Assembly (NCBI RefSeq): GCF_000685295.1
Contig: NZ_ARYL01000004.1
Location: 1 to 64,000 of the forward strand
Origin: Hyphomonas oceanitis SCH89
Lineage (GTDB): Bacteria; Pseudomonadota; Alphaproteobacteria; Caulobacterales; Hyphomonadaceae
Direction: 5' to 3'
DNA length: 64,000 nucleotides
The notes beneath the pieces are model-generated. The model was not told the origin of the DNA, made no database searches, and saw only the letters and a list, made by a program, of their open reading frames with translations. Shown here piece after piece: positions 49,983 to 52,162 of the stretch. Every line of letters begins with the position of its first letter. Positions within the stretch are counted from its first letter, which is position 1. The translations under genes were made by a program, and so were the position numbers.

Positions 49983-51460
49983 CCCTGCGCCTCGACGATC
50001 CGCCGTACAGCTTCCACCATCTCGCCGCGCGGCACTTCAATCTGTCCTGGGCGCGCTTCGCGGTATTCCTCGTTGGACTGGATCGCCTTGGCTTTCAGGG
50101 CGCCCATTTCGAGATCCTTGATCGTCACGGTTCCCGCTTCGATTTCATTGCTGCCAACCATGACCACGGCAGGCGCGCCGCGACGGTCAGCATATTTCAT
50201 CTGACCCTTCATGCCGGAGCCGCCCATATAGGCTTCCGCCCTCAGGCCTGCCCGGCGCAGAAGCGTCGCAATCTCAAGCGCCACAGCCGGGCTGTCCTTG
50301 TCGAGGTTGAGCACGACAACCGGACCATCCAGCTTCACCGTCTCGCCCATGATCGCCAGCGCAGAGGCCAGACGCGAGATGCCAACCGAGAAACCCGTCG
50401 CAGGCACCGTCTCGCCAGTGAACCGAGCCACAAGATCATCATAACGCCCGCCGCCACCGATCGAGCCGATACGATAGGTCTTGCCATCCTCGCCCGTCAC
50501 TTCGCGCAACAGCTCCGCCTCGTAAACCGGCCCGGTATAATATTCGAGCCCGCGCACAACCGACGGATCGATCACGACATCACCTTCCGGCGCGCCGAGC
50601 GCTTCCAGCGCCACGGCAATCGCCTCCAGCTCAGCGAGGCCAGCCTTGCCTTCCTCACTATTGCCGGCCGCTTTCGAAAGGTTCGCCAGCGTCTCGGCCC
50701 GCGTTTTCGCGCCCGCTTCGGCAAATGCCAGAACAGCCTTCACCTCCGCATCACCAAGCCCGGCGCCTTTGGTAAAGTCGCCGCTGTCATCCAACCGGCC
50801 CTTGCCAAGCAGGTCGGCGACACCGGATGCGCCCAACCGGTCCAGCTTGTCCAGCGCCCTCAGGATGGCGAGGCGCGTATCCGCCGATGCCGCCCCAACA
50901 CTCTCGAGAACGCCATTCAGTAGCCGCCGCGTGTTCACGCGGATCACGAACTCGCCCGTCTCCATGCCAACCGCACGCAGGGCTTCGGCGCCCATGGCGA
51001 TCATCTCGGCATCGGCATGAAAACCGGGCGCGCCAACCGTATCAGCATCACACTGCCAGAATTCACGAAAGCGGCCGGGGCCAGGCTTCTCATTGCGCCA
51101 CACAGGGCCCGCAGCATACCTGCGGAATGGTCTGCCAACGGTCTGGCCTGCCTCGGCGATGAACCGCGCAAGGGGCGCCGTAAGATCATAACGCAGCGAC
51201 ATCCACTGCTCGTCATCGTCCTGAATGGCGAACACACCTGCATTGGGCCGATCATCATCCGGCAGGAATTTGCCGAGCGCATCGGCATATTCGAACGCGC
51301 CCGTCTCCAGCGCCTCAAAGCCCCATTTGCGATAGACGCCAGTGACCGTCTCCACCAGTTTCGCCTGTGCATGGATGAGGCCCTCGCGCTTGTCGGGAAA
51401 GCCGCGTGGCTTGCGGGCAAGATCCTTGCCGGTGAGAGGCTGGGTGTCCTTGTCGCTCAT
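49979..51460 (-). CDS. hisS: Histidyl-tRNA synthetase HisS
   Basis: HisS charges tRNA-His. The 493-residue class II enzyme has motif 2 (GPVWRNEKPGPGRFREFWQCD, near residue 118), the HisA loop 'SIGGGGRYDDL' (near 335) and a C-terminal anticodon domain (about 400-493). It is the first gene of an operon with hisZ and hisG, with four-base overlaps. Upstream (51633-51668) lies a small leader frame with five His codons and alternative hairpins, indicating control by charged tRNA-His. AGGA lies about 11 bases before its ATG. Confidence 0.96.
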   Translation of the reverse strand: MSDKDTQPLTGKDLARKPRGFPDKREGLIHAQAKLVETVTGVYRKWGFEALETGAFEYADALGKFLPDDDRPNAGVFAIQDDDEQWMSLRYDLTAPLARFIAEAGQTVGRPFRRYAAGPVWRNEKPGPGRFREFWQCDADTVGAPGFHADAEMIAMGAEALRAVGMETGEFVIRVNTRRLLNGVLESVGAASADTRLAILRALDKLDRLGASGVADLLGKGRLDDSGDFTKGAGLGDAEVKAVLAFAEAGAKTRAETLANLSKAAGNSEEGKAGLAELEAIAVALEALGAPEGDVVIDPSVVRGLEYYTGPVYEAELLREVTGEDGKTYRIGSIGGGGRYDDLVARFTGETVPATGFSVGISRLASALAIMGETVKLDGPVVVLNLDKDSPAVALEIATLLRRAGLRAEAYMGGSGMKGQMKYADRRGAPAVVMVGSNEIEAGTVTIKDLEMGALKAKAIQSNEEYREARPGQIEVPRGEMVEAVRRIVEAQG

Positions 51461-51519
51461 ATCTATCAGGTCCTGTTTACCGCCGCGCTCCGCATAGACG
51501 GAGACGGTCTGGATGGGAA

Positions 51520-51559
51520 GGCAACACGTTGCAGAAGCGCGACCCTGCCGCAGCTTGCC
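51520..51559. other. Additional hairpin potential in the hisS leader
   Basis: GGCAA (51520-51524) can pair with TTGCC (51555-51559), and GCAAC/GTTGC (51521-51532) can form a smaller local hairpin. These lie between the main alternative stems and the hisS start. No T-run follows on the minus strand, so this is not an obvious intrinsic terminator. Confidence 0.3.
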
Positions 51560-51581
51560 TCATCTGGTCTGGTTCTGGGAG

Positions 51582-51668
51582 ATGAACACTTGCAGGAGGC
51601 GCAGCCGAACCGGTTCGCGCCTCAGTGGCGCGTCACGCGTGGTGGTGGTGGTGCAGTGCAGTGTTCAT
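51582..51668 (-). promoter_or_regulatory. Histidine attenuator-type leader structure
   Basis: In mRNA order (minus strand): the leader codons AUGAACACU (51668-51660), His codons, stop. Stem A is CGCGCC (51632-51627) with GGCGCG (51621-51616). Stem B is GAGGCGC (51623-51617) with GCGCCTC (51602-51596), sharing an arm with A. The last is AGUGUUCAU (51590-51582), perfectly complementary to the first nine bases of the leader. A and B are mutually exclusive. No T-run follows stem B, so the downstream effect (termination by other means or translational) is open. Confidence 0.65.
51633..51668 (-). CDS. hisL: Putative histidine leader peptide
   Basis: This 11-codon frame encodes MNTALHHHHHA: five consecutive CAC codons (51653-51639) followed by GCG and TGA. 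Such a run is the hallmark of a his attenuation leader, where ribosome stalling for lack of charged tRNA-His changes the folding of the downstream mRNA. No ribosome binding site precedes it. The candidate -10 box ends only eight bases before the ATG, so the transcript may be leaderless. It is followed by mutually exclusive stems and, 173 bases after its stop, by hisS. Confidence 0.7.
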   Translation of the reverse strand: MNTALHHHHHA

Positions 51669-51676
51669 TGGGGAGG

Positions 51677-51705
51677 CGGATACTGACGGCCCGGCCGAAA
51701 GTCAA
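51677..51705 (-). promoter_or_regulatory. Promoter of the his leader-hisS-hisZ-hisG unit
   Basis: TTGACT (51705-51700), 17 bases, TATCCG (51682-51677), with the start expected near 51670, right at the leader ATG (51668). The same TTGAC-N17-TAT pattern is seen for rpsT (57743-57771), which suggests a shared promoter type in this genome. It begins five bases downstream of the stop codon of the thioesterase gene. Confidence 0.55.
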
Positions 51706-51709
51706 CCTG

Positions 51710-52162
51710 TCAGCCACGCCCGGGCGCGCCGTCCCGACGCGGGATCAGCTTGAAAATACCCGTGCCCCGCATCAGCAGCTTGTCGCCCGTCCAGATGCGG
51801 CCCTCGACCGTGATGATGTCGTCGGCAACGCCAACAACCTCGCCCTTACCCTCAATAAAGCTGCCGAGGTTGGCGCCAGACAGGAAATCGCACATCAGGC
51901 GAATGGTCACCCACCACGTGTCTTCGTCCTTCTCGACAGCCCCGCCCCACGCCATGTCGGCAAAGGTCATGAGCATCCCGCCATGGGCATTCATCATGCC
52001 ATTCGTATGATGTTCCTCGACACGGAAAGCCCGCGTCAGGCCGCCGGCATCCCGCTTCTCGAATAAAGGCCCAACCTGGCGGCCAAAGCCCCGGTGCCAG
52101 GGCAGCTCATTATAGCCGGCCGGAATGTCGAATGTCTGGCTTCTGGTAAAATCGTCGGTCAT
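51710..52162 (-). CDS. PaaI-like hotdog thioesterase
   Basis: This 150-residue single hotdog protein has the conserved 'NGMMNAHGGMLMTFADMAWGGAV' (about residues 54-76, HGG motif) typical of PaaI and acyl-CoA thioesterase relatives. The catalytic acid position is occupied by Asp in TFAD. It probably hydrolyses a short or aromatic acyl-CoA, but specificity cannot be read. The his leader promoter overlaps its 3' end region. Confidence 0.85.
   Translation of the reverse strand: MTDDFTRSQTFDIPAGYNELPWHRGFGRQVGPLFEKRDAGGLTRAFRVEEHHTNGMMNAHGGMLMTFADMAWGGAVEKDEDTWWVTIRLMCDFLSGANLGSFIEGKGEVVGVADDIITVEGRIWTGDKLLMRGTGIFKLIPRRDGAPGRG

Follow-up and report, generated by a model that had tools for sequence, protein, structure and literature searches.

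The enterobacterial his leader combines a run of His codons with mutually exclusive stems, and hisG is among the genes downstream of it. Attenuation of his operons is described for the gammaproteobacteria (PMC9413887). In bacilli, His leader peptides precede hisZ and hisS*, a paralog, and hisS itself has a T-box (Naville and Gautheret 2010; PMC2965389); in the passages cited here, those authors report no similarity between the leaders of Firmicutes and Proteobacteria. A His leader at hisZ is also reported for C. difficile and the B. cereus group (PMC4833913). Among tRNA synthetase genes, attenuators are described for pheST in gammaproteobacteria and for trpS and leuS in Streptomyces (PMC1262725), and trpS of Caulobacter is preceded by a small leader CDS (PMC4117421). 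The trp attenuator RNA of Sinorhizobium meliloti, rnTrpL, is leaderless and also acts as an sRNA (PMC10117765).

Here we describe a leader in front of hisS in Hyphomonas oceanitis SCH89, located in a 64,000-nucleotide stretch of DNA (64 kb; referred to as the window) whose relevant features are collected in Table 1. The leader resembles the enterobacterial His operon leader (RF00514) in its His-codon run, its exclusive stems and the presence of hisG downstream, but differs in that the unit begins with hisS and hisZ, in that the transcript is probably leaderless, and in that there is no T-run terminator. It shares with the leaders of bacilli a His leader peptide ahead of hisS-family genes; however, it belongs to another phylum, and the gene behind it, instead of the hisS* paralog, is a hisS linked to hisZ and hisG. 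The pheST, trpS and leuS leaders likewise place a leader peptide before a tRNA synthetase gene but serve other amino acids, and rnTrpL is, like the RNA described here, an alphaproteobacterial attenuator RNA starting at the leader AUG but is concerned with Trp. An earlier reading of the same DNA from sequence alone (the sequence-only reading) knew of no described example of the arrangement. That statement needs narrowing, given the His leaders published for the hisS paralog and hisZ of bacilli (PMC2965389). Among the matches listed from the open-licence PMC literature there was neither a His leader before hisS in alphaproteobacteria nor an account of histidine attenuation in the group studied here.

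The leader lies on the minus strand between the end of a thioesterase-like gene at 51710, upstream (two NCBIfam hits, both under cut-off), and the start of hisS at 51460. The hisS and hisZ genes overlap by 4 nt, as do hisZ and hisG. For hisZ, models of the hisZ type rank first, all under their cut-offs (NF008953, 189 bits against a cut-off of 384). At 78 hisS loci, a count in which three genomes are present twice and some loci are cut by a contig end, hisZ adjoins hisS in 62 and hisG does so in 61. At one locus (L035, G002:C1:117195-118648) the hisS match consists of two pieces in different frames and looks interrupted or mis-assembled. The RF00514 His_leader model had no match in the window at its gathering score. 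With E values up to 10 allowed over 51400-51760, the sole Rfam match was ybhL, on the opposite strand and below threshold (18.7 bits against a gathering score of 50), and the T-box covariance model was absent from the matches in both searches.

Table 1. Coordinates of the features of the hisS leader region in the window
Feature	Coordinates	Strand	Evidence
Promoter-like P1: -35 TTGACT 51705-51700, 17-nt spacer, -10 TATCCG 51682-51677	51677..51705	-	Sequence
Leader peptide frame MNTALHHHHHA*, five CAC codons	51633..51668	-	Sequence; His kept with CAC/CAT turnover
Arm A GAACAC, begins inside leader start codon; partner D	51661..51666	-	GAAAAC with GTTTTC in ten Henriciella leaders
Arm B CGCGCC, directly 3' of stop codon; partner C	51627..51632	-	Paired 100% and invariant in 31 Hyphomonas leaders; fold
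Arm C GAGGCGCG; partner B or C'	51616..51623	-	Pair counts, fold
Arm C' TGCGCCTC; partner C or E	51596..51603	-	Pair counts, fold model
Arm D GTGTTC, within AGTGTTCAT (51590-51582); partner A or D'	51584..51589	-	Pair counts, fold model
Arm D' GAAC; alternative partner of D	51572..51575	-	Fold model; all 31 Hyphomonas leaders have GAACC
Arm E GAGGC; alternative partner of C'	51557..51561	-	Pair counts, fold model
Promoter-like P2 before hisS: TTCCCA 51519-51514, N17, TATGCG 51496-51491	51491..51519	-	By eye
hisS, histidine--tRNA ligase, 493 aa	49979..51460	-	NCBIfam TIGR00442 364 bits, cut-off 287
hisZ, ATP phosphoribosyltransferase regulatory subunit, 376 aa	48852..49982	-	Gene order and best NCBIfam hit NF008953
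hisG, ATP phosphoribosyltransferase, 248 aa	48109..48855	-	NCBIfam TIGR00070 165 bits, cut-off 76

The leader frame reads ATG AAC ACT GCA CTG (CAC)5 GCG TGA, with its start codon at 51668-51666 and its stop codon ending at 51633, exactly as the sequence-only reading had it. It is the single short ATG frame with at least four His in seven codons on either strand of the whole window, and 20 block-shuffled windows yielded one such frame in total. The start codon begins eight bases past the -10 element of P1 (51677). All 31 Hyphomonas leaders have a P1-type TTGACN-N17-TAT motif ahead of the frame; a strict sigma-70 scan returned 0 promoters at P1. The positions of the -35 and -10 elements and their 17-nt spacing make a transcription start at about 51668-51670 plausible, so that the frame is probably leaderless, with the start predicted from P1. 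Of the earlier proposal of a promoter for a leaderless start near 51670, the TTGACT-N17-TATCCG element is present and recurrent, but the strict scan does not recognize it.

A search of 61 related genomes found HisS in 60. A leader frame followed directly by the CGCGCC arm was present at 31 of the 36 Hyphomonas hisS loci read, and the remaining five (L006, L025, L030, L031 and L034) had other sequence at this place, with 224 bases upstream of hisS available for L031. An RNA covariance model built from the 31 Hyphomonas leaders (R1) matched 62 of 105 genomes of the family, once each, in 3 of 10 genera: 35 of 42 Hyphomonas genomes, 25 Henriciella genomes and two of UBA5336. Its absence from 7 of 42 Hyphomonas genomes indicates that the element is dispensable. 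A class-wide sample gave matches in 2 of 385 genomes, both Hyphomonas, in a search whose large-sample filters lose some weak matches. Comparisons across these genera used alignment A3, 60 rows fitted to the RNA model, which leans towards structure and omits L008 (identical to L007 in the leader stretch) and L094; it was chosen because a MAFFT alignment of 60 sequences misplaced arm D in part of Henriciella. At all 60 A3 loci hisS lies downstream in the same orientation, 86-189 nt past the matched stretch. A scan of the genome collection with a pattern of the arms, containing no His codons, gave 106 stretches, of which 80 were listed and read. Among these 80, 35 carried a His frame, in every case with hisS as the next gene on the same strand, at a distance of 133-230 nt (468 nt at L253, where the first HisS match has its start within the gene); the remaining 45 had no hisS hit and were taken as chance. 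The conservation of frame and stems in relatives, on which the sequence-only reading had staked its proposal, was thus found in Hyphomonas, Henriciella and UBA5336.

In the same order, three further genera (g10, g12 and g30 of family f2) have a His leader of their own before hisS, for example MTRTPHHHGHHHHPTSPRGIGRVRTL, at 17 of 17 loci (L037, L038 and L099-L113). These f2 leaders contain the arms CGGATGG/CCATCCG, which could reach the start region of hisS as well. No frame with clustered His was seen at the loci of f2 genera g2 and g8 (5 loci), of f3 (7), f4 (8) and f5 (7), or of other f1 genera (2); L049 and L058 have scattered His only. Loci of the order without hisZ have no His leader, except L036, where the contig ends; the f3 loci have hisZ and lack the leader.

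Over the 60 leaders the His codons comprise 173 CAC and 153 CAT. In the 56 leaders of twelve codons, His occupies codons 6-11 in 52, 53, 53, 56, 47 and 46 cases, codon 9 being His in 56 of 56 (20 CAC, 36 CAT). In the alignments, leader length varies in whole-codon steps. The exchange of CAC and CAT with retention of His indicates selection as protein code, and on this sequence evidence the leader frame is under selection as a reading frame. The 60 leaders hence place codons for the end product in a short frame that bears the marks of translation. Were the His run incidental, the spacer would be conserved for some other reason, for instance as an untranslated structured RNA, and the near-invariance in Hyphomonas of a C-C' loop that the listed pairings do not need would fit this; however, the synonymous turnover, the whole-codon changes in length and the differing His leaders at 17 of 17 loci of three other genera make such an account very improbable.

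Downstream of the frame, the sequence-only reading had proposed two stems sharing an arm. Both are present, CGCGCC (51632-51627) facing GAGGCGCG (51623-51616) and the latter facing TGCGCCTC (51603-51596), and they belong to a larger set of alternatives that includes D' and E. The A:D and C:C' pairings are compatible with each other and are excluded by B:C, C':E and D:D'; for each of C, C' and D, two partners are conserved, so that the stems are mutually exclusive. In the 31 Hyphomonas leaders, A:D was paired in 98.9% of cells, C:C' in 98.4%, B:C in 100% and C':E in 93.5%, with zero cells of C':E changed on both sides. The hairpins CGCGCC/GGCGCG and GAGGCGCG/TGCGCCTC, which have the middle arm in common, were more stable than shuffled sequence (z -3.6 and -2.5), as was the fold from the ATG to AGTGTTCAT (z -2.4); the longer 120-nt leader had no unusual stability (z -0.2). 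The loop between C and C', AACCGGTYCGGC (51615-51604), is near-invariant in Hyphomonas and frequent in Henriciella, beyond what the listed pairings need.

Within Hyphomonas the stems are near-invariant and covariation was uninformative: shuffling matched the observed values in 182 of 500 and 500 of 500 cases. Across the 60 sequences from Hyphomonas, Henriciella and UBA5336, pairing of A:D and C:C' together amounted to 99.2%, and 14 cells had changes on both sides; neither value was reached in any of 500 shuffles. The number of pairs with a change on both sides was not unusual (219 of 500 shuffles as high), and a second covariation measure showed no clear excess (19 of 500 as high). Eleven of the 14 compensated cells concern one A:D position, a change from C-G to A-U in ten leaders with ATGAAAAC and in L091. 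These eleven leaders form one branch of the HisS tree (100/99), which points to a mostly single inherited event, and the change also converts a leader codon from Asn to Lys. The complementarity of AGTGTTCAT to the leader start, an earlier observation, gains support from these eleven compensated cells, which are mostly one inherited change. The other three compensated cells lie in C:C', as in CAGGCGC/GCGCCTG of L084. Pairing of A:D is broken in L016.

We consider it likely that the region is a histidine-tRNA sensor for hisS-hisZ-hisG acting through ribosome position. The observed frame, its conservation and synonymous turnover, the exclusive pairings and the place before hisS are the grounds for this reading, from which we infer a leaderless start, stalling, switching and the identity of the off state as follows. 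RNA polymerase would start at or next to the A of the leader ATG, and a ribosome would load on the bare 5' end. With charged tRNA-His plentiful, the ribosome would reach the stop codon, covering B and freeing A, and C:C' and A:D would form. With charged tRNA-His short, it would wait on the His codons, covering A and freeing B, and B:C, C':E and D:D' would form. The state with C:C' and A:D is taken as that of low expression.

Pairing was modeled at equilibrium with the ribosome-covered stretch blocked, and the outcome varies with the assumed footprint; blocking 14 nt past the stop codon suppressed C:C' by construction, and the values reported use 10 nt. In transcripts ending just after D, A:D reached 0.92-1.00 with A free, and C:C' reached 0.90-0.95 with the ribosome at the stop codon. 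With a stalled ribosome C:C' was still dominant in these short transcripts (0.51-0.96) and B:C was at most 0.08, so that switching would have to rest on folding order. When 140-base transcripts were modeled with a stall on the second His codon, the two Henriciella-side groups gave B:C of 0.88-0.92 and C':E of 0.76-0.87. Placing the ribosome at the stop codon lowered C':E (0.76 to 0.33 in the first of these groups, 0.87 to 0.62 in the second) and raised C:C' from 0.00 to 0.51 and 0.27, respectively. The 140-base Hyphomonas transcript showed no switch at equilibrium: C':E was 0.73-0.76 in every state (0.76 both stalled and at the stop codon), B:C was 0.22 when stalled, and C:C' was at most 0.04. 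The arms allow a switch, which the model predicts in part for Henriciella and, at equilibrium, not for Hyphomonas.

A scan of 51440-51760 for intrinsic terminator-like sites found none, and the window has no T-run there, in agreement with the earlier remark that the stems lack one; this absence is strict for the window alone, the longest T runs reaching 5 in some relatives. One alternative keeps the same sensor and has it act by classic intrinsic termination at a weak downstream hairpin, E:F, the mechanism of the enterobacterial his operon. Complementarity between GAGGCAA (from 51561) and TTGCCTT (51524-51518) allows this pairing in the window, with a local fold of -18.4 kcal/mol, and the chain of alternative pairings in the Hyphomonas leader resembles that of the enterobacterial his leader. 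However, E:F is unconserved in the 31 Hyphomonas sequences, where as a conserved intrinsic terminator it was rejected (z -1.3 to 2.2, mononucleotide shuffles), and no terminator-like site is present, in contrast to the ilv leader of this genome, whose end is a T-run terminator, GGGCCCTTTTT. That leader, read by eye at L282 upstream of the acetolactate synthase gene, is MRTSLVLVIRHP, with a GTG start and GGAGG ahead of it. We regard termination at E:F as unlikely. With no terminator-like site and E:F unconserved, we describe the leader as attenuator-like rather than as a classic attenuator. The output is the least certain step of the sensor we favor; because there is no T-run, premature termination aided by Rho or by a weak hairpin would be likeliest, and it would affect P1 transcripts only. 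Base composition 3' of C' has C in excess of G in all three groups, which is not decisive for Rho.

A P2-like site recurs by eye before hisS in both Hyphomonas and Henriciella, and TTGCC-N17-TAG stands at its place (also by eye) in the five Hyphomonas loci that lack the leader. We read P2 as a candidate second promoter for hisS, which would supply a basal level of the essential HisS. The earlier proposal of a His sensor over hisS-hisZ-hisG is accordingly kept for its conserved frame, its stems and its place before hisS, and amended in that P2 suggests that some hisS transcription escapes the leader. A possible hairpin immediately upstream of hisS, CTCCG-TCTATG-CGGAG, is complementary by eye in some species; its place better fits the candidate promoter P2, and it was rejected. 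Control might instead be post-transcriptional, the A:D state stabilizing a short leader RNA (an sRNA, or a piece cut out) with hisS transcribed mainly from P2. In its favor, the start codon is masked by A:D, a pairing that the fold model puts at 0.93-1.00 in free transcripts whose end lies after D, and rnTrpL of S. meliloti offers a precedent for a leaderless attenuator RNA doubling as an sRNA (PMC10117765). Against this, A:D drops to 0.04-0.31 in free 140-nt transcripts, there is no sign of an independent RNA, and P2 is only promoter-like; we give this account little credence beside ribosome-position sensing with premature termination.

In 7 of 20 loci scanned, a divergent tRNA-Gln(UUG) gene lies between the leader and hisS (L064, L065, L066, L067, L085, L089 and L090, all Henriciella/UBA5336). 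A DNA search of the 105 family genomes found this leader-type tRNA-Gln in seven, as a single copy and always at this place. Genome G072 has 39 tRNA matches, the other 38 including one ordinary tRNA-Gln, so that the leader copy is extra. Compared by eye with the ordinary copy, it has many differences and a U at position 73, and its anticodon stem varies in sequence but stays paired. A search with it gave a weak match to a Pseudomonas phage tRNA-Gln and no match in plasmids. All seven leaders with the tRNA gene contain one to three Gln codons; among the 53 other A3 leaders, Gln codons occur in two, L035 (one) and L091 (two), and L091 has a decayed tRNA and retains QQ. In the HisS tree the carriers belong to UBA5336 (100/100) and to a single Henriciella branch, in which five are grouped weakly (85/59) and tRNA-less relatives have HHHHHH or HHLHPK. 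The apparent association of tRNA-Gln with Gln codons comes from few, related cases and is a lead, not proof. Tentatively, the start-codon region may serve as a switching strand, letting the RNA sense the ribosome's position at both leader ends and, when off, hide the start without an intrinsic terminator; in Henriciella and UBA5336 the same device might cover tRNA-Gln(UUG) and the synthetase via Gln codons, amounting to leader-peptide control of a tRNA gene by the codons it reads.

Leader-peptide attenuation is already known for his operons, for tRNA synthetase genes and, in the cited accounts, for hisS* and hisZ of bacilli. As far as the matches listed from the open-licence literature go, what is new is the placement of hisS-hisZ-hisG behind one His leader in this group and the RNA itself, together with the proposed switching arm at the start codon, the tRNA-Gln form and, for the window, the missing T-run. 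The leader RNA is compact, conserved and specific enough to propose as a new RNA family. It poses the question of how a leader works without a T-run while the same genome has a T-run attenuator at ilv, and its tRNA-Gln form would allow testing whether leader codons follow the genes that they control. HisS consumes histidine, and HisG with HisZ starts its synthesis; one tRNA-His sensor over both would couple supply and use.
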